Assembly: GCF_003634215.1 (NCBI RefSeq)
Contig: NZ_RBWX01000007.1
Coordinates: 1,536,945 to 1,600,944, forward strand
Length of the DNA stretch: 64,000 nt
Reading direction: 5' to 3'
Source of the DNA: Sphingosinicella microcystinivorans
Lineage (GTDB): Bacteria > Pseudomonadota > Alphaproteobacteria > Sphingomonadales > Sphingomonadaceae
Shown here: positions 1-17,334 of the stretch, one piece after another
Layout of the letters: every line of letters begins with the position of its first letter
Numbering within the stretch: the stretch's first letter is position 1
Notes under the pieces: model-generated
The model's input: the letters and a program-made list of their open reading frames with translations, nothing else
Told to the model about the DNA's origin: nothing
Database searches by the model: none
Made by a program: the position numbers and the translations under genes

Positions 1-640
1 CCAGCTCATGGAGATCGACGGCGTCGACCGGCACAAGGTCCACCGCGTCGTGATCTCCACTGTGGTCCCGACAACGCTCTTCAATCTCGAACGCATGGCG
101 CGGCGCGGCTTCGGCATCGATCCGCTGGTCGTGACAAAGGATCTCGACCTCGGCGTCGGCATCGAGGTCGCGCATCCCGAGCAGGTCGGCATGGACCGCC
201 TCGTCAATTGCGTCGCGGTAGGCGATCGCCACGAAGGCGATTTCATCATCATCGATTTCGGCACGGCGACGACATTCGACATCTTCGTCGGCAATGCCTA
301 TACGGGCGGCATCATCGCGCCCGGCATCAATCTGTCGGCGGAGGCACTCTACGTCGCCGCCGCGCAATTGCCGCGTGTTGCCGTCGCGCCGCCCAAGGGT
401 GGCAAAGCCAAAGGCTTCGATACCGTGTCCGCCATGCAGTCGGGTATTTTCTTTGGTTATCTCGCGATGATCGAGGGGTTGGTCGCCCGCCTGAAGGCGG
501 AGGCCGCGGGGCCGATGAAAGTTCTGGCAACGGGCGGCCTTGCCGTCCTGTTCGAGCCCTACACCAGCGTGATCGATGTCGTGGACGTCGATCTCACGGT
601 GCGCGGCCTTACGATTATCGATGAAAGGAACAGGCTTTGA
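1..640 (+). CDS. coaX: type III pantothenate kinase, 3' part (5' end outside window)
   Basis: This is the C-terminal ~212 residues of a CoaX-type pantothenate kinase, which phosphorylates pantothenate in the first step of CoA synthesis. The reading frame enters the window at base 2. Visible family marks are GMDRLVNCVA, the phosphate-binding FGTATTFD stretch, GGIIAPGINLS and the late ATGGLA segment; these belong to the ASKHA-fold type III enzyme and not to CoaA. The stop codon overlaps the TTG start of the RNase J gene (TTGA at 637-640), so the two are probably translationally coupled. coaX next to rnj is a common alphaproteobacterial order. Confidence 0.93.
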   Translation, partial: QLMEIDGVDRHKVHRVVISTVVPTTLFNLERMARRGFGIDPLVVTKDLDLGVGIEVAHPEQVGMDRLVNCVAVGDRHEGDFIIIDFGTATTFDIFVGNAYTGGIIAPGINLSAEALYVAAAQLPRVAVAPPKGGKAKGFDTVSAMQSGIFFGYLAMIEGLVARLKAEAAGPMKVLATGGLAVLFEPYTSVIDVVDVDLTVRGLTIIDERNRL

Positions 641-2286
641 AGCCTGGAAAAGAACTGATCTTCCTGCCGCTCGGCGGCTCGGGCGAGATCGGCATGAACG
701 TCAATCTCTACGGCTGCAACGGCAAGTGGATCATGGTCGACCTCGGCATGACCTTCGCCGATCCGAACCTGCCGGGTATCGAACTGGTCCTCCCCGATCT
801 CTCCTTCATCGAGGATCGACAGAAGGATCTTCTCGGCATCGTCCTCACGCACGGGCACGAGGACCATATCGGCGCGATCCCTTATCTCGTCGGCGATTTC
901 GACGTGCCGCTGTTCGCGACGCCGTTCACCGCGGGCCTCATTCGCAAGAAGCTGATCGAGGAAGGCATCGAACGTGATGTCGAACTGAACGTCGTGCCTC
1001 TTGAGGGCGAGGTCAACCTCGGCCCCTTCAAGTGCCGTTACGTGCCGCTCGCGCACTCGATTCCCGAAGGCAATGCACTCCTCATCGAAACGCCCTACGG
1101 CAAGATTTTCCACACCGGCGACTGGAAGCTGGACGAGGCGCCCGTGCTCGGCGTGCCCTCCACCGCCGAGGAACTGACCGCGCTCGGCGACGAAGGCATC
1201 CTCGCGCTCGTCGGCGATTCCACCAACGTCTTCAATCCCGAGGCCTCGGGCAGCGAAACCGGCGTGCGCGAAGGCCTCGACAGGGTGATCGCGGGCCACA
1301 AGGGCAGGGTGCTCGTCACCACCTTCGCTTCGAACGCCGCGCGTCTCCATACGCTCGGCGAGGTCGCGAAGGATACGGGCCGCAAGATCTGCGTCGTCGG
1401 GCGCTCGCTTGATCGCATCCTCGAAGTGTCGAAGAGCGTCGGCTACCTCACCGATTTCCCGCCCACCGTGTCGCACGAAGAGGCGATGAAGGTGCCGCGC
1501 GACAGGCTGCTCATCGTCTCCACGGGCGCGCAGGGCGAGGCGCGCGCCGCGCTCTCCCGAATCGCGGAGGGCGATCATCCTCACATCAAGCTCGAACGCG
1601 GCGACCTCGTTGTCTATTCGTCGAAGCAGATTCCCGGCAACGAGATCTCCATCGGCCGCGTGCAGAACGCGCTTGCGGCGCGGGGCATCGAGATCATCAC
1701 CGATCGGCAGGCGCACGTGCATGTTTCCGGCCATCCCGGCGTTCCCGAGCTGGAATCGATGTACGGCTGGATTCGCCCGCAAATATCGATCCCCGTCCAC
1801 GGTGAGCGCCGCCATATGGAAGAGCATGCGCGGCTCGCGCGCCGCTTCGGCGTTCAGGAAGCGGTCGTGCCGGTGAATGGTAGCGCCATCCGCCTCGCAC
1901 CCGGCAAGCCGCAGATCATCAGCCACGAACCCGTCGGCCGCCTCGTCCTCGATGGAGACGTCATTCTCCCTGCCGACGGCGCCACGATGCTCGCGCGTCG
2001 CCGCATGATGCACAACGGTCTCATCGCCGTGTTCGTCGTGATCGACGGCAAGAACCGCCTTGTGGCGCCGCCGCAGGTGCAGTCGCACGGCGTTCCTGTC
2101 GAAGATGACCGCGACGAGTTCATCGACGATTGCGTCTCCGCCGCAAGCGAAGCTGCCGCGAAGGCACGCAGCAACGGTGAAGATGCGCTTGCCGAGGCAA
2201 TCCGTGTCGCCGTCCGCCGCACCGCGCGGGATTGGACCGGCAAAAAACCGATTACCGAAGTCACCGTCACAAGGATCAAAGGCTGA
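637..2286 (+). CDS. rnj: ribonuclease J
   Basis: A 549-residue metallo-beta-lactamase/beta-CASP ribonuclease acting in mRNA decay and rRNA maturation. The signature LTHGHEDHIGAIP carries the HxHxDH metal site near residue 70. A later CASP region includes GDSTN, VSTGAQGE and the histidine-containing HVSGHPG and SIPVHGERRH. The start is taken as TTG at 637: AAAGGAA at 624-630 lies about 6 bases upstream, the peptide KPGKELIFLPLGGSGEIGMN begins as in other members, and the TTGA overlap with coaX supports it. The downstream DUF1467 gene begins on the last base of the stop codon. Confidence 0.95.
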   Translation: MKPGKELIFLPLGGSGEIGMNVNLYGCNGKWIMVDLGMTFADPNLPGIELVLPDLSFIEDRQKDLLGIVLTHGHEDHIGAIPYLVGDFDVPLFATPFTAGLIRKKLIEEGIERDVELNVVPLEGEVNLGPFKCRYVPLAHSIPEGNALLIETPYGKIFHTGDWKLDEAPVLGVPSTAEELTALGDEGILALVGDSTNVFNPEASGSETGVREGLDRVIAGHKGRVLVTTFASNAARLHTLGEVAKDTGRKICVVGRSLDRILEVSKSVGYLTDFPPTVSHEEAMKVPRDRLLIVSTGAQGEARAALSRIAEGDHPHIKLERGDLVVYSSKQIPGNEISIGRVQNALAARGIEIITDRQAHVHVSGHPGVPELESMYGWIRPQISIPVHGERRHMEEHARLARRFGVQEAVVPVNGSAIRLAPGKPQIISHEPVGRLVLDGDVILPADGATMLARRRMMHNGLIAVFVVIDGKNRLVAPPQVQSHGVPVEDDRDEFIDDCVSAASEAAAKARSNGEDALAEAIRVAVRRTARDWTGKKPITEVTVTRIKG

Positions 2287-2534
2287 TGGGCTGGGGATCG
2301 ATACTCGCGATCTATCTTCTGATCTGGACGGTGACGCTGTTCACCGTCCTACCGTTCGGCGTCCGCACCTCCGAAGAGGCGGGCGAAGACAAGGTGAAAG
2401 GGCAGGCCGACAGCGCGCCCGCGCGGCCGATGCTCGCCAAGAAACTGGTCTGGACGACGATCATTTCGGCCGTCCTGATGGTCGGCGTCTGGTGGCTGGG
2501 CGAGGCGGGCTACCTCGACTTCATGCCCAACTGA
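2286..2534 (+). CDS. DUF1467 family small membrane protein
   Basis: An 82-residue protein with two predicted transmembrane helices, one near residues 4-24 (ILAIYLLIWTVTLFTVLPFGV) and one near 53-72. A short charged loop between them holds a conserved RTSEEAGE-type motif. It matches the DUF1467 family, which is usually found next to rnj in alphaproteobacteria; the function is unknown. The ATG shares one base with the RNase J stop (TGATG), so it is cotranslated with rnj. The longer in-frame extension upstream lies inside rnj and is not needed. Confidence 0.85.
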   Translation: MGWGSILAIYLLIWTVTLFTVLPFGVRTSEEAGEDKVKGQADSAPARPMLAKKLVWTTIISAVLMVGVWWLGEAGYLDFMPN

Positions 2535-2561
2535 GGCGGGCAAGCGAAGTCGAGGGACGGC

Positions 2562-4913
2562 TCAGCGCAGGCGCTCCGTCGCCTGCGCCAATGCCACGTA
2601 GAGCTTGCCGAGGTCGGACGACAGCAGCGTCATCGAAAGCGCATTGCCGTCGCGGTCCGCGTTGAAGCGGCGGAGCATGGCTTCGAAATCGTGGATGTAG
2701 CGGCGGACGCCGTCGCGGAATTCGGCATCCTCGCTGTAGCGGCGCGTGACTTCCTTGGCGTCGCGGTTCGTGAGGAGTTGCACGGCGCGGCGTGAGAACA
2801 CGCCGCGTTCCCCCGCGAGATACTGCTTCCACGCCGTCTCGGTGACCTCCGCCGAAAGCCCCTTGGCGATATCGATCGAGGCACTGTTGAGCGCTTCGAC
2901 GAGCAGTTCGGACTGACGGCCGATGTCCTTCCGGAGTGCGGCGTCGAGGTGCGCGTCGGCCTCGTTCACGCGGGTTTCGATGGCGGCAGCGGTTTCGGCG
3001 ACCGACACCAGCTGGCGCGACAGTCGCTCAGCGGCCAGCTGCGCGGCGTCGGCACTGCGCGCGCCGGCGGCCTCCAGCGCCTTGATCTGGGTTTCCACCG
3101 GCTCGATCGCGCTCTGGCGTACAGCCTCACGCGACGCCTTTGTCAGCGCTTCGCGCGCTTCCTCGACGACAGCTTCAAGCGCCGTCTTCACGGTGCCAGC
3201 CGTCTGCGCCGCGACTTCACGCACGCGCCCGAGCGCGTCGATCAGTTGCGTCGTCGCGCTGAGCGCGGTGCTTTCCGCCGAGCGTTCGACGCCCGACAGG
3301 ATGCCCTGCGCGACCTCGATCTCGCCGCGTACCTTGGCGACGACGGCCTCGAGGCTTTCGCGCTGGTCTTCGAGCCCGTCGAGCAGTTCGTCGATCGCCT
3401 TCCGTCCGGCGGCGATCGGGGCGTTGATTGCGACGGCGCGTTCGGACACGCGGTCGATGTCCTGTGAAAGGTTCGCCACCGAACCCCGCAGCGCATCGAT
3501 GGCGCCAAGGCCCTTTTCGGCGCCTGCCGGTACGCCTTCGACAAGCGAGGCTAGCGCCTCTTCGGTCGCGCTGCGCACGGCGGCGAGCGCATCGCCGATC
3601 TCCTTCGCGGCGCCGCGCGTGGTGCCGAGCGGTGTGGAGAGCGAATCGATCTCGCAGCGCACCTGTGCAATCCGCGCGGAGAGGCTGGCGAGGACGCTTT
3701 CGCTCGAATTGGCCGCGTTGCCGAGCTTGGCGTCGAGCACGCTGAAGCCGCGCTCGACGGTATCCAGGAAGCCGCGGCTGCCTGCGTCCTGATCGCTGAT
3801 GCGCTTGCTGAGTTCTGAGACGTGCTCGGCGATGGCCGTGATCCGGCTTGCGATGGTCTCGATGGCCCGCCCGCCGATGTCTTCAAGATCGAGCGAGGTA
3901 CGCGAGATCGCCGCGGCGAGTGCTGCCGTTTGCGCCTCGACGCCGGCGCGGGTGGCTTCCAGCGCTTCACCGGTCTTGGCGAGCGCAGCGTCGCCGCTCG
4001 CTTCGAGCGCGGTCGAATACGCACCGAGGCGACCTTCGGCGTCCGCGGCAGAGGCGGAAATCGCGGAAATCACGTTGGTGAGGCTTGCGGTCGCGGCCTT
4101 GGCCTGTGCGCCGGCTTCCTCACTGCGTGTCCACACGGCGGCAAGCAGGTCTTCCGTTTCCAGAAGCTGTGTGCGTGCGTCGGTGGCGCTCGTGGCGAGC
4201 AGGCCAGCGATGCGGTTCACCTGCGCTTCGGCGTCGGGAAGCGCGCTCGCAAGCGAATCGAAACTGGCCCGCGCCTTCTCGCTGCTCTCCGCGAGCGCGG
4301 TGGAGCTGGCGTCGATCGCGGCGCGGTCCTCTGCGAGTGTTCCCGCGAGCGTGCGCGTGCGGTGAACGGCGGCGTCGGTGGCGCTCACGAAGCCCTCAAC
4401 CTCGTCTGCGAACACCTTGCGCAGCCCCTCGACGCGCATGGTCACGGCGGCGAGCACGGAATCGATGCTTTCCAGCTGCGTGCGCGTTTCGCGTGCGGTG
4501 AGTGCGAAGCGCTCCTCGGCGGCTTCGATTCGGGCCAGCATCTCGCGCTGTTGACCCGGCCATACGCGTGCCGCGACGAGCGCGATCAGCCAGATTGCAG
4601 ACAGGGGCGCAGCCACGCCGCCCGCGACACCCGCCCATTCGGTGAGCGTCAGAGCGCCAACACCCGCCGAACCGGCAATCAGCCAGACGACAGCGGCGGC
4701 AAGCGCCAGCCATGCAAGCGAAGCGAGCCCGGCGAACAGAAGGACGCGGCTGGAAAAGGTCGGCACGGAATCGTCCACGGCCTCCTCATCCATCTGGCGC
4801 AGACGCTTCATCGGCGCCGACGTGTCCGGCTCTGCATCGGACGAGTGGGGCTTCTGCCACGTGTAGTCCGGCGGAAGTTTTTCCGGAAATGACCGCCGAC
4901 CGACTGGACTCAT
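2562..4913 (-). CDS. large two-TM coiled-coil membrane protein, TipN-like architecture
   Basis: A 783-residue protein. A polar N-terminal region (about 1-55) is followed by two transmembrane helices near 57-80 and 94-117. Next comes about 570 residues of Ala/Glu/Arg/Ser-rich helix with heptad character and no Pro/Gly breaks typical of enzymes. A distinct C-terminal block (about 700-783) includes MTLLSSDLGKLYVALAQA. No nucleotide-binding or HAMP/signalling hairpin motif is visible. Two N-terminal TMs plus a long cytosolic coiled coil resemble the polarity protein TipN of Caulobacter; this is an architectural comparison only. The gene converges on DUF1467 and diverges from the Hpt gene. Confidence 0.8.
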   Translation of the reverse strand: MSPVGRRSFPEKLPPDYTWQKPHSSDAEPDTSAPMKRLRQMDEEAVDDSVPTFSSRVLLFAGLASLAWLALAAAVVWLIAGSAGVGALTLTEWAGVAGGVAAPLSAIWLIALVAARVWPGQQREMLARIEAAEERFALTARETRTQLESIDSVLAAVTMRVEGLRKVFADEVEGFVSATDAAVHRTRTLAGTLAEDRAAIDASSTALAESSEKARASFDSLASALPDAEAQVNRIAGLLATSATDARTQLLETEDLLAAVWTRSEEAGAQAKAATASLTNVISAISASAADAEGRLGAYSTALEASGDAALAKTGEALEATRAGVEAQTAALAAAISRTSLDLEDIGGRAIETIASRITAIAEHVSELSKRISDQDAGSRGFLDTVERGFSVLDAKLGNAANSSESVLASLSARIAQVRCEIDSLSTPLGTTRGAAKEIGDALAAVRSATEEALASLVEGVPAGAEKGLGAIDALRGSVANLSQDIDRVSERAVAINAPIAAGRKAIDELLDGLEDQRESLEAVVAKVRGEIEVAQGILSGVERSAESTALSATTQLIDALGRVREVAAQTAGTVKTALEAVVEEAREALTKASREAVRQSAIEPVETQIKALEAAGARSADAAQLAAERLSRQLVSVAETAAAIETRVNEADAHLDAALRKDIGRQSELLVEALNSASIDIAKGLSAEVTETAWKQYLAGERGVFSRRAVQLLTNRDAKEVTRRYSEDAEFRDGVRRYIHDFEAMLRRFNADRDGNALSMTLLSSDLGKLYVALAQATERLR

Positions 4914-5047
4914 GGTGCACGACCCCCGCGAAACCTGTTGTATTAAAACCCCTCGCGCACCTGTCTATCACCGCCCGTGCGGACAGGACAGCCCGGCAAT
5001 CGGCATTTGTCTACACTTTGTTAACACTCGTCGCCGAACATGGGCGC

Positions 5048-5356
5048 ATGAACCCCGAATCCGCCCCTGCTTTCCTGCCGCATCGACTGCTCGAGATCAC
5101 GGGCGGGGATACGGCGCTGTTCGACGATCTCATGTCGGAATTTCGCGAAAATCTGCCCGCCTATGCCGCTGAACTGCGTGCCGCAAAAGATCGCGCGGGC
5201 TGGAAAGCGGCAGCGCACCGTCTGAAAGGCGCGGCGCAGGCAATCGGTGCGGAAGCCATTGGCGCGATCGCGCTGCTTGCCGAGCTGTCGGCACCGGGTG
5301 ACAGCGCGCTCCTCGCGCGCCTCGACGCCGAGATCATGCGCTTTTCAAGCTTCTAG
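5048..5356 (+). CDS. histidine-containing phosphotransfer (Hpt) domain protein
   Basis: A 102-residue, all-helical protein carrying the Hpt signature AAHRLKGAAQ, with the phosphoacceptor His at about residue 57. Such proteins relay phosphate between hybrid kinases and response regulators. The length equals a single Hpt domain. The start ATG at 5048 is the first plausible one; the reading frame stays open further upstream but into sequence unlike the family. No hybrid kinase or receiver protein lies beside it. Its last 12 bases overlap the convergent CDP-alcohol phosphatidyltransferase gene. Confidence 0.8.
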   Translation: MNPESAPAFLPHRLLEITGGDTALFDDLMSEFRENLPAYAAELRAAKDRAGWKAAAHRLKGAAQAIGAEAIGAIALLAELSAPGDSALLARLDAEIMRFSSF

Positions 5357-6172
5357 AAACGCGCCCTCGCGTTGCCGGCGCGCGCGTTCGATCAGAACCG
5401 CGGCCAGGCTGAGACCAAGGATTTCCCAAAGCCAGTACCAGAGCGGGCTTCCGGCAAGGCATGCAATGAAGATCGCAAATGTGCGCCCGCTCGCGCCGAG
5501 GATCGTGGCGGCGGAGAGAACAGGGCGCATTCTCTCCACATAGAGCGCACGCAGCGCGGGGTCCGCGCCGAGCGCTGCATCGAGTGCGTGTGCGCCGGGC
5601 ATCAATTTCGCCTGAAGAGCATTGTAGCCGACCTCGAGAAAACCGCCGACCGCCGTGCGGGGCACAAAACCGGGCTGGCCCGCGCTTCGCCGCATGAACA
5701 CTTCGCGCTGAAGCTCGTACCATGCGGCCTGCACGACGTGCGCCGCGCCTGCAAGTACGGCCGCTCCCAGGCTGATCGCGAGTCCCGCTTCGTTTTTAGC
5801 CGCGAAGGCAAGGCTCAAGTAGACCAGAATGAAGACGCTGTAGTCGCAGAAGCCGTCGAGGAAACGCCCGAACTCGCTGGTCCGCCCCGTGGCCCGCGCC
5901 GTCATGCCGTCCAGGCCATCGAAGACGTGCCAGGCAAGCATCGCCGCGAATCCGGCGAGTGCCATCGCCGGGGTTTCATAATGAAAATAGGCCCAGGCCG
6001 CGACGATGCCGAAGCCGATTCCGGCGATTGAAATGGCGTTTGGCGGAATATGGAGTTTAACCGCAACCGGCAGAAATGCCCGCGATACCGGATGAATGAC
6101 CGCGATGTTCAGCGGTTCCTCTATGTCCCGCGGGCGTCCGCCGTCTGCTGTGTCGACAGTGAATTGCATCAT
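5345..6172 (-). CDS. CDP-alcohol phosphatidyltransferase family protein with complete motif
   Basis: A 275-residue multi-pass membrane protein carrying the complete CDP-alcohol phosphatidyltransferase motif DG(x)2AR(x)8G(x)3D(x)3D, with the four aspartates near residues 85, 88, 106 and 110. Enzymes of this family join a CDP-activated group to an alcohol with loss of CMP, typically at the membrane. Substrates cannot be read from sequence. It diverges, with only 86 bases between, from a second protein of the same family followed by myo-inositol-phosphate synthase and a cytidylyltransferase-like gene. A role in inositol lipid or inositol-phosphodiester synthesis is therefore the best inference. 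Confidence 0.85.
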   Translation of the reverse strand: MMQFTVDTADGGRPRDIEEPLNIAVIHPVSRAFLPVAVKLHIPPNAISIAGIGFGIVAAWAYFHYETPAMALAGFAAMLAWHVFDGLDGMTARATGRTSEFGRFLDGFCDYSVFILVYLSLAFAAKNEAGLAISLGAAVLAGAAHVVQAAWYELQREVFMRRSAGQPGFVPRTAVGGFLEVGYNALQAKLMPGAHALDAALGADPALRALYVERMRPVLSAATILGASGRTFAIFIACLAGSPLWYWLWEILGLSLAAVLIERARRQREGAFLEA

Positions 6173-6258
6173 GTGCGATGTGCGCCGCTCAGGGGAGAGT
6201 TGGCAAGTCCGCTTGCTTGCCCTTATGGTCCGCCATCCATTCAGACCCGGAGACGTCG

Positions 6259-7617
6259 ATGGCGCTTGTAGCGCTGCTCTATGCCCATCATTTCAGTGCC
6301 GGGGCGGATGAACCGCTGGCCGCGCTCAGCATCACGGGAATCGCCTCGGTGGACCGGCAGATTCGCCAGTGCCGCCGCGCGGGCGCCGAGCGCGTCGTCG
6401 TGATGGTGGAGCGTGTGACGCCCCGCCTCGCCGCCGCGCTCGACCGCGCGCGCCGCGCATCGTCCGGCATCGAGGTCGTTCACGGCGGAGATGGTGTCCG
6501 CGCCGCGATCCGTGAGGAAGACAGTGTGCTTTCGCTCGACGAGGGGCTTGTCGCCGATGAGCGCGCGATCGCCGCCGTCGCGAGCGCGGCGGGGGACGTG
6601 GTGCTCGGTGTGTGGATGGAGGCGGATGAGCGCCCGATCACGGCGGAACGGATCGCCTCGGACCGATTCTTCGCCGGGCTCGCGCGTTTCCCCGGGCGTC
6701 TTGTTCGCAGCGTCGCGGGCCGTCTCGGCGACTGGGACATGCAGGCCACGCTGGTTCGCTCGGCGCTGGGGGAGGGGCCGCACACGCCTGTCGCCGTCGC
6801 CCGCATCCCGGCCTATTGCCCGTCGCGGCGGCGCGAGGTGCCGCTGCAATGGCGCCGCGCGACCGATGCCGCTTCCGCCGACGCAGCGACCACGGAGGCG
6901 CTGGCCGCCGCACAGAAGGGCATTCTCGATTGGCCGGCGCGCTTCATTCACCCGCCGGTCGAAAACCTGCTCACACGTCTGCTGCTGCCGACGCCGCTCA
7001 CGCCCAACATGATTTCTGTAGGCGTGTTCCTGCTTGGGCTCGCCGCGATGGCGGCATTCGCGCTCGGCCATCTCTGGATCGGGCTCGCGCTCGCGCTCGT
7101 CATCGGCCCGCTCGATGGCGTGGACGGCAAGCTCGCGCGCACCCGGGTCGAATTCTCGAAGTGGGGTGATCTGGAGCATGTCGCGGACAAGGTCGTGGAA
7201 TACGGCTGGTTCGCCGCGCTCGCATATTATTTCAATTCGGTCGGCCACGGCGGCGCATGGCCGCTCGCCGCGATCTGCGTGGGCTTCGCGCTCGCCGAAG
7301 CCGTACAGGGCGAGTTCTTCCGCCGTTTCACGGGCAAGCAGATCGACGACGCCGGCGACTTCGAACGCCGCTTCCGGTTGGTCGCGGGCCGCCGCAACAC
7401 GTTCTTCTGGAGCCTTTTGCCGTTCGCGGCTTTTGGCGCCTGGTATGCGGGTTTTGCGATGATCGCGGCATACAGCGCGCTTACCTTTTTCGTCATGCAG
7501 GCGCGCTTCTTCGTTCGATTGCAGGAATATGGCAGCGAAAACAGCGATCGGATCGCCGCGAACTTTGCCAAGACGGCTTACACATTCTTGCCCGATTCCG
7601 CTGGCAACGCTAAGTGA
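6259..7617 (+). CDS. fusion of degenerate nucleotidyltransferase-like domain and CDP-alcohol phosphatidyltransferase-like domain
   Basis: A 452-residue two-part protein. Residues 1-200 look like a Rossmann-type nucleotidyltransferase (SITGIASVDRQIRQCRRAGAERVVVMV) but lack the LAAGxGxRL loop and the signature lysine. Residues ~230-450 are a membrane domain with DGVDGKLAR at 286-294. The order matches the IPCT/DIPPS fusion that makes di-myo-inositol phosphate phosphate in some thermophiles. The motif is unusual: after KLAR(x)8G the next residues are DLEHVADK, so the third catalytic Asp is Glu or displaced. ATG 6259 is chosen because CGGAGA lies 6-11 bases upstream. myo-Inositol-phosphate synthase follows after 42 bases. 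Confidence 0.8.
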   Translation: MALVALLYAHHFSAGADEPLAALSITGIASVDRQIRQCRRAGAERVVVMVERVTPRLAAALDRARRASSGIEVVHGGDGVRAAIREEDSVLSLDEGLVADERAIAAVASAAGDVVLGVWMEADERPITAERIASDRFFAGLARFPGRLVRSVAGRLGDWDMQATLVRSALGEGPHTPVAVARIPAYCPSRRREVPLQWRRATDAASADAATTEALAAAQKGILDWPARFIHPPVENLLTRLLLPTPLTPNMISVGVFLLGLAAMAAFALGHLWIGLALALVIGPLDGVDGKLARTRVEFSKWGDLEHVADKVVEYGWFAALAYYFNSVGHGGAWPLAAICVGFALAEAVQGEFFRRFTGKQIDDAGDFERRFRLVAGRRNTFFWSLLPFAAFGAWYAGFAMIAAYSALTFFVMQARFFVRLQEYGSENSDRIAANFAKTAYTFLPDSAGNAK

Positions 7618-7659
7618 TCGTCTTCAACCGCGCAGTAGACGCGCCTCAGGATCTTTCCC

Positions 7660-8766
7660 ATGCATGAAGTAAGAGTAGCTGTCGTTGGTATCGGCAATTG
7701 CGCAAGTTCGCTTGTCCAAGGTGTCGCCCACTATCAGAACGGTGGCGCAAACGAACAGATCGGCCTGCTGCACTGGGATCTGGGCGGTTACCGCCCCAAG
7801 GATATTCGTTTCGTTGCCGGTTGGGATATCGATCGCCGCAAGGTCGGCCTTGATATCGCCGAGGCGATCTTCGCAAAGCCGAATTGCACCGCCGTATTCT
7901 GCGATCATGTGCCGGAAACAGGCACGCGCGTCCGCATGGGCCATATTCTCGACGGCGTCGGCGAACATATGGCCGACTATTCCGAAGACCGCACGTTCCT
8001 CGTGGCGAACGAGGCGGAGCCGGACAAGGATGAGGTCGTGCGTGTGCTGCGCGAGACGCGCGCTGACGTGCTGATGAACTACCTTCCCGTCGGCAGCCAG
8101 AAGGCGACCGAGTTCTACGCCGAATGCGCGCTCGAAGCCGGGGTGGCGTTCGTCAACAACATCCCGGTGTTCATCGCCAGCGACCCCGTATGGGCAAAGC
8201 GCTTCAAGGACGCGGGCCTCCCGATCATCGGCGACGACATCAAGGCGCAGCTCGGTGCCACGATCGTCCACCGCGTGCTCACCGACCTTTTCAAGAAGCG
8301 CGGCGTGAAGCTCGATCGGACCTACCAGCTCAACACCGGCGGCAACACAGACTTCCTCAACATGCTGAACCGCTCGCGCCTCGCCTCCAAGAAGGAGTCG
8401 AAGACGGAAGCCGTGCAGTCCGTCGCCGAGCGCCGCATGGAGGACGAGAACATCCACGTTGGCCCGTCCGACTATGTGGCTTGGCAGAATGACAACAAGG
8501 TCTGCTTCCTGCGCATGGAAGGGCAGCTTTTCGGCGGCGTCCCGATGAACCTCGAACTCCGCCTGTCGGTGGAGGACAGCCCGAACTCCGCAGGCGTCGC
8601 GATCGATATGATCCGCTGTGCGAAACTCGCACTCGATCGTGGTCTTTCGGGGCCGATCGATGCTGCGGCAAGCTATTTCTGCAAACACCCGCCGCGCCAG
8701 ACGAGCGACGATCTTGCGTTCGCCGCGCTCGAGGCGTTCATCGCCGGCGGCGGCAAGCTCCACTAG
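7660..8766 (+). CDS. ino1: myo-inositol-1-phosphate synthase
   Basis: A 368-residue inositol-3-phosphate synthase, which converts glucose 6-phosphate to L-myo-inositol 1-phosphate through an NAD-dependent internal oxidation. The N-terminal Rossmann loop VAVVGIGNCASSLVQG, GDDIKAQLGATIVHR and NTGGNTDFLNM are typical of the family. The length fits the short, actinobacterial-like form and not the ~530-residue eukaryotic form. An AGGA-type site about 10 bases upstream supports ATG 7660. The next gene starts 9 bases after the stop, so it supplies inositol phosphate within the same operon. Confidence 0.95.
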   Translation: MHEVRVAVVGIGNCASSLVQGVAHYQNGGANEQIGLLHWDLGGYRPKDIRFVAGWDIDRRKVGLDIAEAIFAKPNCTAVFCDHVPETGTRVRMGHILDGVGEHMADYSEDRTFLVANEAEPDKDEVVRVLRETRADVLMNYLPVGSQKATEFYAECALEAGVAFVNNIPVFIASDPVWAKRFKDAGLPIIGDDIKAQLGATIVHRVLTDLFKKRGVKLDRTYQLNTGGNTDFLNMLNRSRLASKKESKTEAVQSVAERRMEDENIHVGPSDYVAWQNDNKVCFLRMEGQLFGGVPMNLELRLSVEDSPNSAGVAIDMIRCAKLALDRGLSGPIDAAASYFCKHPPRQTSDDLAFAALEAFIAGGGKLH

Positions 8767-8775
8767 GCCAGGGTT

Positions 8776-9486
8776 GTGCAGGCCATTGTGCTTGCCGCCG
8801 GTTTCGGCAGCCGGCTGCGTAGCCACGCGCCATCGAAGCCGCTCGCACAGGTCGCGGGTCGGCCGTTGCTGCTCCACACGGCCTTGCGTCTCGCCGAAGC
8901 CGGTGTCGATGACATCACGGTGGTGCTCGGGCACCGTGCAGAAGATGTCGCGGCGGCGCTCGCGGAATGGAATCTGCCGCTCGGCGTACGCACGGTCACT
9001 GTCGCTGACCCGGCGCTGCCGAACGGCGTCTCGGCGCTGGCGGCCGCGCCGTTCATTGCGTCGCGGGCCTTGCTTGTAATGGCCGACCATCTCGTCGACC
9101 CCGCGCTCTACCGTGCCGTGGCCGAGGCGCGCGCCGAGGACGACGCGCTGCTGCTTGGCGTCGATCGCCGTATCGGCCACGCCTGGATCGACGAGGATGA
9201 CGTCACACGCGTCCGCACCGAAGGGGATGCCATCGTCGCCATCGGCAAGCACCTTGAGCCCTTCAACGGATATGACACCGGGGTCTTTTCCGTGGGCAAG
9301 CCGCTGTTTGATGCGCTTTCCGGGCTTTCCACGCCCAGCCTGTCGCAGGGTGTTGCCGCGCTCGCCGCGTCGGGGCTTGCGCGCGCGGTCGAAACCGGGG
9401 ATGGCGCTTGGCTCGACGTTGACGACGCGCGGGCGCTGGATATCGCGGAGCGCTGGCTTGGCGCGAAAGGGGAGAGTGCTGCATGA
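8776..9486 (+). CDS. CTP:inositol-1-phosphate cytidylyltransferase-like nucleotidyltransferase
   Basis: A 236-residue sugar-phosphate-type nucleotidyltransferase. It begins MQAIVLAAGFGSRL (nucleotide loop) with Lys 21 in SKPLAQVAGRPL. VMADHLVDPALY holds the metal-binding Asp near 104, and GVDRRIGHAWIDEDDVTRV and YDTGVFSV follow. This spacing is close to the cytidylyltransferase domain of the IPCT/DIPPS fusion. With the inositol-phosphate synthase 9 bases upstream, CDP-inositol is the inferred product; CTP or another NTP with a different sugar phosphate is not excluded. The start is GTG at 8776. The stop overlaps the Wzi-like gene start (ATGA, 9483-9486). Confidence 0.82.
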   Translation: MQAIVLAAGFGSRLRSHAPSKPLAQVAGRPLLLHTALRLAEAGVDDITVVLGHRAEDVAAALAEWNLPLGVRTVTVADPALPNGVSALAAAPFIASRALLVMADHLVDPALYRAVAEARAEDDALLLGVDRRIGHAWIDEDDVTRVRTEGDAIVAIGKHLEPFNGYDTGVFSVGKPLFDALSGLSTPSLSQGVAALAASGLARAVETGDGAWLDVDDARALDIAERWLGAKGESAA

Positions 9487-10943
9487 AGTCTCTTGTTGCG
9501 GCCGCCGCCGTACTGCTGTCGTCGATGCCCGCTGTCGCAGGTCCATGGCTTGAAGCGGGCGACCGCCAGGTCCGCGCCGATGTCGAGCTTCTGAAAGCCG
9601 CCGGGCTGATCCACGGCCCCGTCAATGCATGGCCTCTGCCGTGGGCGCAGGTCGCTGAGGGGCTTGAGCGCGCGAACGGCCAGGCGCTGCCGCCGCATCT
9701 CGGCGCTGCCGTGCGCCGACTCACGATCCTTTCAGAGCGCGACGGCCAGAAGAGCCGCTACGAGGTCCGCGCCCGCGGCACCAATCGCGCGTCCGTCGTC
9801 CGCGATTTCGGCGATACCGCCCGCGAGGACGGCGACGTCACCGTCCGTGCCGAGCATGAGCTCGGCAAGCTCTATGTCTCTTACGGCGTCGGCTGGCGTG
9901 ATGGTCAGCAGGGCCGCGATTTCCACTTCGAGCCGGCGACACTCGCGCTCCCGATCGGCAACTGGGCGCTCTACGGCGGCTATGTCGATACGTGGTGGGG
10001 TCCGGGTCACGACAGCGCGCTGCTCTTCTCTACGAACGCCCGCCCGATCCCGCGCGTCGGTATCAAGCGGCTGGTGCCCGAGCCGATCGACTTTCCCGTG
10101 CTCCGCTGGTTCGGCCCTTGGCGTCTCGATATCTTCGCAGGCATCGCGACCGAAAAGCGCGCGGACTACAACAATCCCGCCATCGCGGGGATGCGCCTAT
10201 CGTTCGAACCCGTCCCGGGCCTCGAAGTCGGCCTCAATCGCGGACTTCAACTCTGCGGCAGCGGGCGCCCCTGCGGGCTCGGCACGATCTTTGACGCCGT
10301 TGTCGGCATCGGCGACGCCGACAACACGGGCACCTTGAACGAGCCCGGCAACCAGATCGCCGGGTTCGACGTCAGCTATACGCGCATGATCGGCAACGTC
10401 GCGGTGCAGGCTTACACGGAGTGGGAAGCCGAGGACGAGGACAACCTCCTTATCGAGCAGTTCTCGCGCATGGCGGGGTTCACGCTGTCCGGTCCGATCG
10501 GTGACAACGGCGCGAGCTGGACACTTCTGGGCGAATGGTCCGATACGCTTGCGGTGAAGCTCGGGGGTGGCAAAACCTATCCCGGAAGTATGTATAATAA
10601 TTTCATATACTTCGACGGCTTCACCTATCGCGACCGCGCGTTTGGCCACAGCCTCGATGGCGACAGCGAACTCTGGACCGCTGGTCTCTCCGTCACGGAC
10701 GCTAAGAACCGCCGTTTCTACGGCACCTATCGCCGCGTCGACATCAACAAGACGAGCAACCTCAGGAACAACAACCTTTCGCTCAATCGCGAGACTTACA
10801 ACGCCTTTGAAATCGGCACCGAACTCCCCACGGCGTTCGGGGATATCAGCCTTGAGGCGCGCTATGATACCGATGCGCCGAACACGCCGGGCGTCAGTGA
10901 TGCAAAAACGGCGATCGAAATTGGCTGGCGCACGCGCTTCTAG
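9483..10943 (+). CDS. Wzi-like capsule assembly outer-membrane protein
   Basis: A 486-residue protein with a Sec signal peptide (MKSLVAAAAVLLSSMPAVAG, cleavage after about residue 20). A helical N-terminal part is followed by about 400 residues of alternating beta strands ending in the outer-membrane signature WRTRF. YVDTWWGPGHDSALLFSTNARPI is characteristic of the Wzi family, which anchors capsule or exopolysaccharide to the cell surface. It is translationally coupled to the cytidylyltransferase-like gene. This links the inositol-phosphate pathway to the envelope, although no polysaccharide polymerase or export gene lies nearby. Confidence 0.82.
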   Translation: MKSLVAAAAVLLSSMPAVAGPWLEAGDRQVRADVELLKAAGLIHGPVNAWPLPWAQVAEGLERANGQALPPHLGAAVRRLTILSERDGQKSRYEVRARGTNRASVVRDFGDTAREDGDVTVRAEHELGKLYVSYGVGWRDGQQGRDFHFEPATLALPIGNWALYGGYVDTWWGPGHDSALLFSTNARPIPRVGIKRLVPEPIDFPVLRWFGPWRLDIFAGIATEKRADYNNPAIAGMRLSFEPVPGLEVGLNRGLQLCGSGRPCGLGTIFDAVVGIGDADNTGTLNEPGNQIAGFDVSYTRMIGNVAVQAYTEWEAEDEDNLLIEQFSRMAGFTLSGPIGDNGASWTLLGEWSDTLAVKLGGGKTYPGSMYNNFIYFDGFTYRDRAFGHSLDGDSELWTAGLSVTDAKNRRFYGTYRRVDINKTSNLRNNNLSLNRETYNAFEIGTELPTAFGDISLEARYDTDAPNTPGVSDAKTAIEIGWRTRF

Positions 10944-10944
10944 G

Positions 10945-10959
10945 TTAATTCAATTTTAG
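10945..10959 (+). promoter_or_regulatory. near-match to a CtrA half-site pair
   Basis: TTAA-N7-TTAG at 10945-10959 differs by one base from the alphaproteobacterial CtrA box TTAA-N7-TTAA. It sits in the 77-base gap in front of the DUF2336/histidine kinase genes. A single imperfect site may be chance in an AT-rich gap, so this is only a pointer. Confidence 0.2.
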
Positions 10960-11020
10960 GCGCATCCCTCTAGGTTCGACATCCGAGAAAATATACGGGT
11001 TGCACCAAAGAGGGGTTGTC

Positions 11021-12163
11021 TTGCCGCTGGACCGGCCAATCGACGTTCAGGCGCTGCTGGGTCTCGCCGCTGGCCGTTCCGGCGCAGCGCGGGCACAGAT
11101 TGCGAACGCGGTCACCGATCTTTTCCTGCCCGCGGCACAGCGGCTTACCGATCAGCAGCGCGCCCTGATGACGGATGTGCTCGGGCGTCTGCTCGGGACC
11201 ATCGAAATGGAGGTGCGCCGGCACCTTGTCGATGCGCTCAGCCGTTCGCCCGCATCGCAGCCGGAGCTCGAAGCCCGGCTCGCAAGCGACAGCATCGAGG
11301 TGGCGCGGCCGATTCTGGAGCGCAGCCGCGTGGTGCGCAACCCCGCGCTCATGGACATCGTCATCCAGTGTGCCGAAGAGCACCGCATGGCGATCGCGCT
11401 GCGCGAAACGGTCTCGCCGCCGCTCACGGAGGCACTGGCCGAGCGTGGCTTCAAAGGCGGCGAAGACGATGTCCTCGAAGGCCTGATCCGCACCGAAGAC
11501 CCAGTGCTTTCGCGGCGCGCGATGGAGCTTCTGGTTGCCGAGAGCAAGCGCAACGGCCAGTTCCAGCAGCCGCTGCTCACGCAAAACGATCTGCCCGCCG
11601 ACCTCGCGCACGAGGTGTATTGGTGGGTCGCGGCAGCGCTCCGCCGACACATTCTCAAGAATTTCGTCATCGATCAGGCCGTGCTCGATCCGATGCTCGA
11701 ACGCGCGGCGAAGCGCGCGATGGTGGAATACGACGACACGCAGTCCGTGCAATCCCGCGCGCTCCAGCTTGCGCGGCGCCTCAACGAACTTGGCGAGCTG
11801 ACGGACGGCTTCCTGCTTCGCACCCTTCGCCAGGGGCGGCTCAGCCTTTTCACCGCAGCGTTTGCAGCCCGCGCGAAGATCGCTTTCAATACCGTGTGGC
11901 GGATCGTCACCGATCCTGCGAGCGAGAGCTTTATCGTGTTGGCGAAGGCCGTTGACGTCAGCCGTGACGCCACGGCGTCACTCGTGATCGTGCTTGGCGA
12001 TCTGGGCAACGCGGCAAGCGCGCGGCCACCTTCGGCGGTCGCGGAAGTTCTCCGTCTTCACGACGACCTCGATGTCGCCTCTGCGCGCCGCGTGCTGAAC
12101 TATTGGCAGCTCGATGCCGGCCTTCGACAGGCGATAGACGATCTGAACGAGGGTGCCGCGTAG
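11021..12163 (+). CDS. DUF2336 domain-containing protein
   Basis: A ~380-residue, mostly helical soluble protein matching DUF2336, a HEAT-like alphaproteobacterial family of unknown function. Visible blocks are LFLPAAQRLTDQQRALMTD, RHLVDALSRSP and the repeated short helices that follow. The start is ambiguous: TTG at 11021 has AAGAGGGG 5 bases upstream and is preferred, while TTG at 11000 is the longer option. The histidine kinase gene begins 5 bases after the stop, so the two are probably one transcript and may act in one signalling process. Confidence 0.78.
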   Translation: MPLDRPIDVQALLGLAAGRSGAARAQIANAVTDLFLPAAQRLTDQQRALMTDVLGRLLGTIEMEVRRHLVDALSRSPASQPELEARLASDSIEVARPILERSRVVRNPALMDIVIQCAEEHRMAIALRETVSPPLTEALAERGFKGGEDDVLEGLIRTEDPVLSRRAMELLVAESKRNGQFQQPLLTQNDLPADLAHEVYWWVAAALRRHILKNFVIDQAVLDPMLERAAKRAMVEYDDTQSVQSRALQLARRLNELGELTDGFLLRTLRQGRLSLFTAAFAARAKIAFNTVWRIVTDPASESFIVLAKAVDVSRDATASLVIVLGDLGNAASARPPSAVAEVLRLHDDLDVASARRVLNYWQLDAGLRQAIDDLNEGAA

Positions 12164-12168
12164 CGGCC

Positions 12169-13629
<1,461 letters not shown>

Positions 13630-13641
13630 CACGCCGCATAT

Positions 13642-14415
13642 ATGAGCTTGCTCGACACGGCATTAATTTCCGAAAATCTTTGGCTGCTCGGCATAGGTCT
13701 GTTTGCCGCGATGACTTTGTGCGCGCGGCTAGGTGCACGTCTTCGCCAGGCCGGTGGCACCGAGAGGGATGGTGAAGGCGGCGGCGAGGGGTATCTTCTG
13801 TCGGCCGCGCTCGCGCTCCTTGGCTTATTGATCGCGTTCACCTTTTCTCTGGCGCTTAACCGGTACGATACGCGCCGCGCGCTTGTGGTAACGGAAGCGA
13901 ACGCCATCAGCACGACCTGGCTTCGAGCAGAACTCGCGGGTGAGAGCTCCGGGACGGAGCTGCAAAGGGCGATTGCAGATTACACCGATGTTCGCCTGAA
14001 GTTGCCCGCAGCCGAGGACAACGCAGAGAGTGTGGAAGTGGAGACCGTCAAGGCGCAGGCAAAGCTGTGGGCGGATATGCGCGCCGCGATCCGCGATGCG
14101 CCTCCGCCTGTTGCCGCCACGATCGTTACCGCAACCAACGAAATGTTCGATGTGGCGAGTGCCCGGAAGGCGGAGCGCATCGCGCGTGTTCCCGGACGCG
14201 TGATAGAAGTGCTGATCCTTTATGCCATGATGTCTGCGGCTATCGTCGGGTACGTTCTTGGCGGATCGGGCGGCAAGCATCGCGTCGTCACCACGATTCT
14301 GTTCGCGCTCCTTACGCTCGCCCTGCTGCTGATCCTCGATCTCGATAGGCCGTGGAGCGGCGGCATTACGGTGTCCCAGCAACCGATGCTGGACGCCCGC
14401 GCCGCGATGCGTTGA
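13642..14415 (+). CDS. DUF4239-like membrane protein
   Basis: A 257-residue membrane protein with helices near residues 12-32, 50-72, 188-210 and 217-235. A cytosolic helical segment follows RYDTRRALVVTEANAISTTWLRA. This layout and the conserved R-R-A-L-V-x-x-E-A-N-A-I-x-T-x-W stretch fit the DUF4239 (bestrophin-like) family; no function is established. It follows the histidine kinase by 12 bases and ends just before a hairpin separating it from convergent gltA. Confidence 0.72.
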   Translation: MSLLDTALISENLWLLGIGLFAAMTLCARLGARLRQAGGTERDGEGGGEGYLLSAALALLGLLIAFTFSLALNRYDTRRALVVTEANAISTTWLRAELAGESSGTELQRAIADYTDVRLKLPAAEDNAESVEVETVKAQAKLWADMRAAIRDAPPPVAATIVTATNEMFDVASARKAERIARVPGRVIEVLILYAMMSAAIVGYVLGGSGGKHRVVTTILFALLTLALLLILDLDRPWSGGITVSQQPMLDARAAMR

Positions 14416-14430
14416 AGGCGCAAACGAAAT

Positions 14431-14450
14431 CGGGCGCCCGAAGGCGCCCG
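14431..14450. terminator. hairpin between convergent DUF4239 gene and gltA
   Basis: CGGGCGCC (14431-14438), loop CGAA, GGCGCCCG (14443-14450) forms a perfect 8-bp GC stem between two convergent genes. Only a short, mixed T stretch follows on the plus strand and an ATTTCGTTT stretch on the minus strand, so it may work in both directions but is weak as a classical intrinsic terminator. Confidence 0.6.
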
Positions 14451-14476
14451 TTGGTTTCCGTATGTTGACCCGCCGA

Positions 14477-15763
14477 TCAGCGGTTCGTGATCTCCACATA
14501 GTCGCGCGCCGTTGCGCCGGTGTAGAGCTGGCGCGGGCGGCCGATCTTCTGCGCCGGATCCTCGATCATCTCGTTCCACTGCGCGACCCAGCCCACGGTG
14601 CGGGCGAGCGCGAAAAGCACGGTGAACATGGAGGTCGGGAAGCCGATCGCCGAAAGGATCACGCCCGAATAGAAGTCCACGTTCGGGTACAGCTTCTTCT
14701 CGATGAAATACTCGTCGTTGAGCGCGAGGTGCTCCAGCTCGCGCGCCACGTCGAACACCGGGTCGGTGACGCCCAGCTTGGCGAGAACCTCGTTCGCCGT
14801 CTTCTGCATGACCTTCGCCCGCGGGTCGTAGTTCTTGTAGACACGGTGACCGAAGCCCATCAGGCGGAACGGGTCGTCCTTGTCCTTGGCGCGCTTGATA
14901 TATTCCGGAATCTTGTCGGGCGTGCCGATCTCGCGCAGCATTTCGAGGGCGGCCTCGTTGGCGCCGCCGTGCGCCGGGCCCCACAGGCAGGCGATGCCGG
15001 CCGCGATGCACGCAAACGGATTGGCGCCTGACGAACCGGCGAGACGCACGGTCGAGGTCGAGGCGTTCTGCTCGTGGTCGGCATGGAGGATGAAGATCTT
15101 GTCCATCGCCTTCTCGATCACCGGATCCACCTCATAGGGCTCCGCCGGCACGCCAAAGGTCATGCGCAGGAAGTTGCCCGTGTAGGAGAGGCTGTTGTCC
15201 GGATAGAGGAACGGCTGGCCCACCGAATATTTGTAAGCCATCGCCGCGATGGTCGGCATCTTGGCGATCAGTCGGTGGCTCGCGATCCGGCGCTGGACGG
15301 GATCGTTGATGTCGGTCGAGTCGTGGTAGAAGGCCGAGAGCGCGCCGACGACGCCGCACATGATCGCCATCGGGTGCGCGTCGCGCCGGAAGCCGCGATA
15401 GAACATCGCGAGCTGTTCGTGGATCATCGTGTGGCGCGTGATCGTGCGCACGAACTCGTCATACTCGTTCGGGTTCGGAAGCTCGCCGCGCATCAGCAGG
15501 TACGCGACTTCCATGAAGCTCGACTTTTCGGCGAGCTGATCGATCGGGTAGCCGCGGTGGAGCAGCACGCCCTGGTCGCCGTCGATGTACGTGATCTTCG
15601 ATTCGCAAGATGCGGTCGAGGTGAAGCCGGGATCGTAGGTAAAGGCGCCGGTGTTGCCGTAGAGCTTGCGAATATCGACGACATCCGGCCCGACCGAGCC
15701 CGAAAGCACCGGGTAGTCGCTGGCCTTGCCGCCCAGATCCAGCTTCGCAGTCGTGTTGCTCAT
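14477..15763 (-). CDS. gltA: citrate synthase
   Basis: A 428-residue type II (hexameric, NADH-sensitive class) citrate synthase condensing acetyl-CoA and oxaloacetate at the entry to the TCA cycle. Conserved catalytic regions include [11 protein letters not shown] (His), [12 protein letters not shown] (His) and [15 protein letters not shown]; the family Asp lies in the ERDFYS-like stretch near PNVDFYSGV. The N-terminal [23 protein letters not shown] region is typical of the Gram-negative type. The gene lies 32 bases downstream of gltX on the same strand, a common alphaproteobacterial order. Confidence 0.96.
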
Positions 15764-15795
15764 GGCTCGCTCACCCTTCCGTTGTCGTTGGCGGT

Positions 15796-17223: not shown

Positions 17224-17334
17224 GAAGATCCTGTCCGAAACTGAAGAAAGTCGGGGGGCTCTATCATAACGCTGCCAGCCGTTCAAACCGGGCCGGTCGA
17301 AGCTGGAGCGTCGCCGCGCGCGCGTCTGTCCCGC

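Follow-up and report, generated by a model that had tools for sequence, protein, structure and literature searches.

A candidate CDP-inositol route to inositol-bearing membrane lipids in Sphingosinicella microcystinivorans and other Alphaproteobacteria

Introduction

Inositol lipids are rare in bacteria, and a five-gene locus of Sphingosinicella microcystinivorans raises the question of how an alphaproteobacterium could make one. The locus lies in a 64,000-nucleotide stretch of contig NZ_RBWX01000007.1 (positions 1,536,945 to 1,600,944; hereafter the window), which is part of a 3.96-Mb genome. It encodes two CDP-alcohol phosphotransferases (PT1 and PT2), an inositol-3-phosphate synthase (MIPS), a protein (P0004) resembling CTP:inositol-phosphate cytidylyltransferases (IPCTs) and an outer-membrane barrel of the Wzi family (Table 1). 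An initial annotation of the DNA had proposed that these genes belong together, make CDP-inositol and attach inositol phosphate to a lipid or to a surface polymer. Our analysis suggests that the gene set very probably activates inositol with CTP and attaches inositol to a membrane lipid, most likely ceramide.

From gene content, natural gene fusions, co-occurrence, motifs and phylogenetic placement we infer the reactions, the use of ceramide as acceptor and the functions of PT2 and Wzi, and the likelihoods attached to them are our own judgement. MIPS would convert glucose-6-phosphate to inositol phosphate, as its family is known to do, and P0004 would, with high likelihood, join inositol phosphate and CTP into CDP-inositol. 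PT1 is likely to transfer phosphoinositol from CDP-inositol to a membrane lipid, and given a lipid, the acceptor is reasonably likely to be ceramide, with inositol phosphoceramide as the product. This would be a Kennedy-type route without a phosphatidylinositol intermediate. PT2 may be a second transferase, of the kind of Caulobacter CpgA, that uses the same CDP-inositol and extends or alters the headgroup, which we regard as possible at somewhat under an even chance. The Wzi barrel goes with PT2, and its receiving or displaying the product at the outer membrane is a doubtful last step. The explanation as a whole, a CDP-inositol route to inositol phosphoceramide with extension by PT2 and display by Wzi, is the one that we favor, with modest confidence.

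Results and Discussion

An IPCT-type nucleotidyltransferase linked to inositol-phosphate synthesis

MIPS matched the Inos-1-P_synth family (PF01658) with 125.3 bits (cut-off 27) and, as its best PDB match, the inositol-3-phosphate synthase 1gr0 (429.7 bits); with the mycothiol INO1 equivalog TIGR03450 it scored 462.9, under the cut-off of 638. The three best PDB matches of P0004 (2xme, 4mnd and 4jd0) are all IPCTs, 4jd0 being named as such in the literature (PMC12275187). Its best NCBIfam match was NF041135, the model for bifunctional proteins that join IPCT to a DIPP synthase (DIPPS), at 97.1 bits against a cut-off of 580 that is set for the two-domain protein; PT2 scored 38.4 bits with the same model. 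We aligned P0004 with the IPCTs of A. fulgidus and T. maritima and with six CpgD-like proteins, one of them from its own genome. P0004 carries the IPCT motifs LAAGxGxRL, KPL, the metal Asp in DH, and DTGxF, and its residues R13, K21, D104-H105 and D167 are invariant in 14 rows and common to the A. fulgidus IPCT, while the T. maritima IPCT has DS where others have DH. The bifunctional architecture itself is absent, as the nucleotidyltransferase (NTase) and the CDP-alcohol phosphotransferases are encoded on separate genes and the N-domain of PT2 lacks the NTase motif.

Four other alphaproteobacterial genomes encode MIPS and IPCT as a single polypeptide of 625-698 amino acids with no stop inside the match (L159_4 in G313, L162_6 in G234, L165_2 in G114 and L166_5 in G161). 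Of all the sequence evidence, this joining to the inositol-phosphate-forming enzyme points most strongly to the putative substrate of P0004. Together, the IPCT-type motifs, the natural fusions and the co-occurrence described below give good support to the initial proposal that CDP-inositol is formed in a mesophilic alphaproteobacterium. In two further alphaproteobacterial loci (L163, L164) IPCT is fused to a DIPPS-like CDP-alcohol transferase domain and adjoins MIPS.

P0004 was also considered as CpgD, the cytidylyltransferase of the Caulobacter phosphoglycerate pathway, and this assignment was rejected on differing motifs and on a separate CpgD-like gene in the same genome, the product of which is 53.7% identical to a protein in a serine palmitoyltransferase (SPT) locus (L168). 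Where P0004 has NGxS, DH and DTGxF, the CpgD-like rows have DNxxS, NGDT and ESIG, and DH and DTGxF are common to the A. fulgidus IPCT. CpgD contacts glycerate through Asn90, Asn110 and Ser170 (PMC13228409); mapped onto P0004 via the six CpgD-like proteins, the position of Asn90 is shared (N83) and those of Asn110 and Ser170 differ.

Co-occurrence of MIPS, IPCT and PT1

The distribution of the five genes was analyzed in 109 genomes of the family Sphingomonadaceae, which are related, so that Fisher p-values are descriptive. Thresholds were chosen after the results: full-length PT1 denotes 15 of 39 matching genomes (E<=1.2e-23, the next at 1.4e-10) and strong PT2-like 14 of 96 (E<=1.2e-55, the next at 7.5e-39). 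MIPS was counted in 30 of 34 matching genomes, those with at least 59% identity; left out were three with partial matches of 26-28% and G097, whose match is a piece of 27 residues where a contig ends. With IPCT found in 14 genomes and Wzi in 15, the results showed a coupling of IPCT to full-length PT1, as 14 genomes hold both, none holds IPCT only and one holds PT1 only (Fisher 9e-17), the single exception being G097, with its truncated MIPS piece. MIPS is present in all 14 IPCT genomes. The gene set is retained even where it is dispersed, over three sites in G072 (IPCT with Wzi, PT2 with MIPS, and PT1) and over four contigs in G040 (MIPS with a PT2-like gene; PT1; IPCT; Wzi).

Wzi follows another pattern. 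It coincides with strong PT2-like genes in 13 genomes, with one genome holding the PT2-like gene only and two Wzi only (Fisher 6e-14), compared with 9 holding both, 5 IPCT only and 6 Wzi only for Wzi and IPCT. Four genomes (G012, G052, G056, G063) have Wzi and a strong PT2-like gene, there without the catalytic signature, and lack MIPS, IPCT and full-length PT1; in G052 and G056 the two genes adjoin. Against a simple PT2-Wzi pair, G005 and G007 have Wzi with weak PT2-like matches alone, G097 has PT2 and no Wzi match, and the gene next to Wzi is IPCT, not PT2, both in the window and in G072, while Wzi lies elsewhere in the genome in G003, G012, G040 and G063. Wzi as a part of the inositol core was rejected on its closer tracking of PT2, although its genomic place is mixed.

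A scan of genome contigs with the PT1 alignment gave 339 pattern matches, of which 296 were relatives, and 80 of these loci were viewed, many with flanks cut by contig ends and none from Novosphingobium acidiphilum or Sphingomonas paucimobilis. Near PT1 we found MIPS in 70, IPCT in 74, PT2 in 16 and Wzi in 7 loci. The record titles include Sphingomonas, Polymorphobacter, Acidocella, Nitrospirillum and Kordiimonas, as well as metagenome-assembled genomes (MAGs) labelled Geothrix, Bacteroidetes and Rubricoccaceae. A class-wide search with the PT1 alignment A3 matched 2 of 289 genomes, and since at most 8 candidates per genome were scored this is not a reliable absence. Taken together, the 109 genomes and the 80 PT1 loci bear out one half of the proposed five-gene association, MIPS-IPCT-PT1 being a widespread unit, and revise the other, PT2 and Wzi being a second pair. 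The five genes thus look like two coupled modules, MIPS-IPCT-PT1 and PT2-Wzi.

MIPS also occurs apart from this unit, as 16 of the 30 MIPS-bearing sphingomonad genomes lack IPCT. Many of these MIPS genes, when viewed, stand beside glycosyltransferase, epimerase, histidine phosphatase, methyltransferase, zinc dehydrogenase and Gfo/Idh genes (L036, L041, L044, L048 and similar loci).

The two CDP-alcohol phosphotransferases and the Wzi barrel

Both transferases exceed the cut-off of CDP-OH_P_transf (PF01066; 22 bits), PT1 with 45.4 and PT2 with 37.1 bits. In the AlphaFold2 model of PT1 (pLDDT 92.8) AF2299 was the sole PDB match at E<=0.001, with a TM-score of up to 0.56 on the query, and phosphatidylinositol phosphate (PIP) synthases and IPCT-DIPPS were weaker matches. 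The PT2 model (pLDDT 78.5) had the IPCT-DIPPS 4mnd as best fold, followed by AF2299. A maximum-likelihood tree of 35 rows, which came with warnings about one long outgroup row and about the joining of long branches, placed PT1 in one clade (98/98) and PT2 with the CpgA-like proteins (99/93), separate from the DIPPS-like fusions. The three CpgA-like rows (L156, L168, L062) are presumably CpgA orthologues, as the first two belong to SPT clusters. PT2 has GxxExxxD where the CpgA-like rows have the canonical GxxxDxxxD, and therefore works like CpgA at most. The signature of PT2 was checked in P0002-like proteins of 29 genomes, of which 9 were intact and 20 without it, a few of these 20 frames holding stops; where IPCT/PT1 is present, 9 of 10 genomes keep it intact, and where it is absent, 0 of 19. 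The signature-less proteins come from 20 sphingomonad genomes (L070-L074, L040, L172-L183, L185, L188).

PT1 was also considered as a PIP synthase that uses CDP-diacylglycerol (CDP-DAG) and rejected, as the equivalog models for PIP and archaetidylinositol phosphate synthases gave scores under their cut-offs, both for PT1 (39.2 with NF045883, cut-off 170; 51.5 with NF040950, cut-off 180) and for PT2 (40.6 and 33.6, respectively).

The barrel matched PF14052 with 228.8 bits (cut-off 30.1) and PDB 2ynk (E 4.1e-28). In four loci (L051, L059, L060, L061) MIPS-IPCT-PT1 and another CDP-alcohol transferase stand among GT4 glycosyltransferases. Pfam matches at L059 comprise an ABC-2 permease, an ABC ATPase with TPR, a Wzz match just under the cut-off and two glycosyltransferases, and at L060 a permease and a glycosyltransferase; at these four loci it is possible that CDP-inositol is used in a polymer.

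Genomic links to ceramide synthesis

The acceptor is suggested by the neighbors of PT1 in other genera. An SPT match of more than 300 bits was found in the flank of 12 of the 80 PT1 loci, and the two of these SPTs that were checked passed NF047599 with 659.5 and 675.8 (cut-off 500). At the Acidocella aromatica locus (L110) a fatty acid hydroxylase, a GNAT protein, a fatty acyl-AMP ligase, a DXD glycosyltransferase (for which 'GT32-type' is our own label), MIPS, IPCT and PT1 are followed by LptF/G, an open reading frame resembling acyl carrier protein, SPT, a GT4 enzyme, PIG-L, a flippase-like Polysacc_synt protein and a second GT4 enzyme. The GNAT protein, which scores under the Pfam cut-off, we label ceramide-synthase-like by reference to work on Caulobacter. 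In G313 one strand carries, in direct succession, a partial SPT, a fatty acid hydroxylase, GNAT, the MIPS-IPCT fusion and a GT32-type gene. SPT, IPCT, PT1, GT4 and PIG-L-like genes occur together at L098, L110, L115, L125, L137, L139, L142, L143, L144, L146 and L147, with MIPS as well (cut off in L144 and L147) and with GT32-type and flippase-like genes in some. We regard the neighborhood of SPT, IPCT, PT1, GT4 and PIG-L as a candidate glycosyl-inositol-phosphoceramide locus.

The genome of S. microcystinivorans encodes an SPT of its own (755.1 bits, cut-off 670), next to genes that resemble those presumed to encode CpgC and CpgB at another SPT locus, and therefore ceramide should be available. 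These genes are at L171 (G000:C3:161000-180000), and CpgD-like and CpgA-like genes lie elsewhere (L170, L062), all labels being drawn from place in SPT loci. Judging by these genes, the genome probably holds a ceramide phosphoglycerate pathway.

An SPT-type match at E<=1e-100 was present in 22 of 25 PT1 genomes chosen from the 80, and in 16 of the 19 PT1 genomes not labelled sphingomonads versus 38 of 284 in a class sample that excludes the family of S. microcystinivorans, a comparison that backs the ceramide link as supporting rather than decisive evidence. Several points weigh against the proposed route. In this comparison the threshold is not specific for SPT, as the E. coli control also reaches it (NF047603) and five controls, E. 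coli and B. subtilis included, match at E<=1e-60; the class sample is alphaproteobacterial, yet three of the 19 genomes carry other phylum labels, and the three misses among the 19 score 230-329 bits. The 12 SPT-linked loci represent a small number of groups (Acidocella, Nitrospirillum, Elstera, Rhodospirillales, unplaced MAGs and one labelled Geothrix), and in the lineage of the window the set is not beside SPT, which is over the cut-off in 104 of the 109 family genomes, so that its presence does not discriminate there. As for PT1, the AlphaFold2 model suggests about six transmembrane helices, a type that the authors of the PIP-synthase work link with soluble acceptors (PMC4634129), and its invariant R156 and R230 could bind a phosphorylated acceptor, the acceptor-phosphate pair of RsPIPS being R153/R191. 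G040 holds IPCT and PT1 together with a PT2-like protein that lacks the signature. Finally, two PAP2_3 (PF14378) proteins of the genome exceed the cut-off, with 106.8 and 71.4 bits, which makes an Aur1-like step conceivable, although this Aur1-type search does not discriminate, with matches in 10 of 12 genomes and 11 of 14 controls.

Alternative explanations

If PT1 were a CDP-inositol:diacylglycerol (or dialkylglycerol) transferase as in Rhodothermus, phosphatidylinositol would be the main product and any inositol on ceramide would be the work of another, Aur1-like enzyme. The Rhodothermus enzyme reportedly uses a glycerol lipid (Jorge and colleagues, 2015), and two loci labelled Rubricoccaceae/Bacteroidetes (L141, L093) combine PT1 and IPCT with a gene only distantly like MIPS (23-24%); the two PF14378 proteins could supply the Aur1-like enzyme. 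However, in other genera PT1 and IPCT adjoin SPT, GNAT, fatty acid hydroxylase and fatty acyl-AMP ligase genes, and the PT1-bearing Acidocella aromatica (L110) and Kordiimonas laminariae (L136) gave no PF14378 match at E<=0.01. We consider a glycerolipid acceptor unlikely, though it is the foremost of the alternatives. The annotation's pairing of 'lipid or surface polymer' can be narrowed in a similar way, since the set adjoins SPT in other genera and a lipid, likeliest ceramide, is therefore favored. The polymer, with phosphoinositol placed on a capsule or its lipid anchor and Wzi tethering it to the outer membrane, is kept as the lesser option because four family genomes (G002, G008, G036, G078) carry MIPS, IPCT and PT1 among glycosyltransferase and ABC-transporter-like genes and because a Wzi family barrel is in the set; low-level inositol is also described in the capsule of B. 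thetaiotaomicron (PMC9246714). That Wzi flanks PT1 in just 7 of 80 loci, that in G012, G052, G056 and G063 it accompanies PT2-like genes where the inositol genes are missing, and that no capsule synthesis or export gene is among the ten neighbors scanned (window 8-19386) make the polymer improbable in our view.

A soluble product is the least probable of the alternatives, and we give it very little credence. PT1 or PT2 would then be a DIPP synthase leading to the osmolyte di-myo-inositol phosphate, in line with the best fold of PT2 (4mnd) and with the IPCT-CDP-alcohol transferase fusions beside MIPS in other alphaproteobacteria (L163, L164). These fusions, however, branch with AF2299/4mnd (86/81) and not with PT2, which falls with the CpgA-like proteins, or with PT1, which stands apart; their genomes (G121, G298) are without an SPT-type match at E<=1e-100, in contrast to most PT1 genomes, and PT2 has no NTase motif in its N-domain. 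Moreover, di-myo-inositol phosphate is a solute of (hyper)thermophiles.

Organization of the locus

All five genes are present as originally annotated, as judged by open reading frames and family scores. On the plus strand PT2, MIPS, IPCT and Wzi are separated by 42 nt, 9 nt and a 4-nt overlap, with PT1 divergent, which agrees with the view of four genes in one tight operon. The PT2 reading frame is open from 6178, but homologues start at the Met at 6259, which is probably the true start. The scan for promoters and terminators stayed at or under chance, and the one promoter-like match in the region between PT1 and PT2 (6200-6229, 0.8 expected) is not above it. The ten neighboring window proteins scanned are mostly housekeeping or signalling genes, with no capsule or sphingolipid gene among them.

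Table 1. Genes and sequence features of the locus (positions in the window)
Feature	Position	Strand	Description
PT1 (P0001, 275 aa)	5345..6172	-	CDP-alcohol phosphotransferase; PF01066 over cut-off; proposed CDP-inositol:lipid (ceramide) inositolphosphotransferase
PT1 catalytic signature DxxDGxxARx8GxxxDxxxD, residues 85-110	5843..5920	-	canonical; invariant in 35 aligned rows
Divergent intergenic region PT1/PT2	6173..6258	.	sequence
PT2 (P0002 from conserved Met, 452 aa)	6259..7617	+	nucleotidyltransferase-fold N-domain without NTase motif plus CDP-alcohol phosphotransferase domain; CpgA-related
PT2 variant signature DGVDGKLARx8GDLEHxxD	7114..7188	+	one residue shorter than canonical; third Asp replaced by Glu; 14/14 rows of alignment A4
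MIPS (P0003, 368 aa)	7660..8766	+	inositol-3-phosphate (L-myo-inositol-1-phosphate) synthase; PF01658; 1gr0
IPCT-like CTP:inositol-phosphate cytidylyltransferase (P0004, 236 aa)	8776..9486	+	GTG start
Wzi-family outer-membrane barrel (P0005, 486 aa)	9483..10943	+	PF14052; 2ynk; signal-peptide-like N-terminus read by eye

Relation to known systems and biological meaning

A close precedent is the CDP-inositol pathway to glycerophosphoinositol lipids of Rhodothermus marinus described by Jorge, Borges and Santos in 2015, reportedly with a dialkylglycerol as acceptor. The locus resembles it in the use of CTP-activated inositol as headgroup donor and in the pairing of IPCT with a CDP-alcohol phosphotransferase, and the Rhodothermus-type set of MIPS, IPCT and CDP-alcohol phosphotransferase is present here. 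To our knowledge no ceramide link, PT2 or Wzi belongs to that pathway. The same work reportedly mentions alphaproteobacterial homologues, which lowers the novelty of the present set. A. fulgidus IPCT/DIPPS (4mnd) and the T. maritima IPCT (4jd0) share with the locus the IPCT active-site motifs and, in PT2, the architecture of an NTase fold joined to a CDP-alcohol phosphotransferase; they differ in that the active-type NTase is here a separate gene and the CDP-alcohol phosphotransferase domains fall in other clades than that of Archaeoglobus.

A CDP-inositol lipid route has also been proposed for Bacteroides vulgatus and Prevotella (PMC9246714, PMC10191378). That cluster, compared by its description, likewise combines MIPS, an NTP transferase and a CDP-alcohol phosphatidyltransferase, and its function is likewise a proposal; it includes a HAD hydrolase, which is suggested to transfer the headgroup onto ceramide, whereas none is found among the five genes or the ten scanned neighbors here (PMC9246714). 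The B. thetaiotaomicron genes BT_1522-1526 share MIPS-derived phosphoinositol on ceramide as the proposed end product but reach it through CDP-DAG, a PIP phosphatase and an AUR1-like enzyme (PMC9246714). In Caulobacter, CpgD and CpgA are proposed to add a second phosphoglycerate (PMC12275187, PMC11324152, PMC13228409), and CpgA (ccna_01217, which we equate with CC_1159 of the other numbering) has a CDP-alcohol transferase domain and is a proposed user of CDP-glycerate (PMC11324152, PMC13228409). The likeness lies in a stand-alone cytidylyltransferase and a CDP-alcohol transferase proposed to act on a phosphosphingolipid, with PT2 grouping with the CpgA-like proteins; the donor there, however, is CDP-glycerate, and P0004 departs from the CpgD-like proteins in its DH and DTG motifs and is encoded beside MIPS.

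A search of open-access literature by titles and abstract openings gave no report of CDP-inositol sphingolipid synthesis in Alphaproteobacteria. The idea of CDP-inositol lipids is not wholly new, given the work reported on Rhodothermus and the Bacteroidetes proposal. The apparently new elements are the ceramide context, the fusions of MIPS with IPCT, a second transferase that is related to CpgA and has a variant signature, and the association of that transferase with Wzi. In its widest form, the proposal is that Alphaproteobacteria reach inositol phosphosphingolipids by a CDP-inositol pathway of their own that does not depend on AUR1. GT32-type, GT4 and PIG-L-like enzymes of Acidocella, Nitrospirillum and relatives would further add sugars to the product, yielding a bacterial analogue of the plant and fungal glycosyl inositol phosphoceramides. 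In Sphingosinicella, Wzi and a second transferase derived from CpgA would build a di-phosphoinositol ceramide and expose it at the outer membrane, where it might take over part of the function of lipopolysaccharide. As a joint claim we regard this as unlikely to hold in every part.

For the organisms themselves, the gene set is a candidate basis for the inositol-phosphoceramide-like lipid that Heaver and colleagues (2022) found in Novosphingobium acidiphilum, which has neither of the clusters known to the authors (PMC9246714). A defined set that recurs in many genera gives genes and enzymes to work on, and it suggests that the scheme of a cytidylyltransferase and a CDP-alcohol transferase may serve at least twice on bacterial ceramide, with glycerate through CpgD/CpgA and with inositol here.

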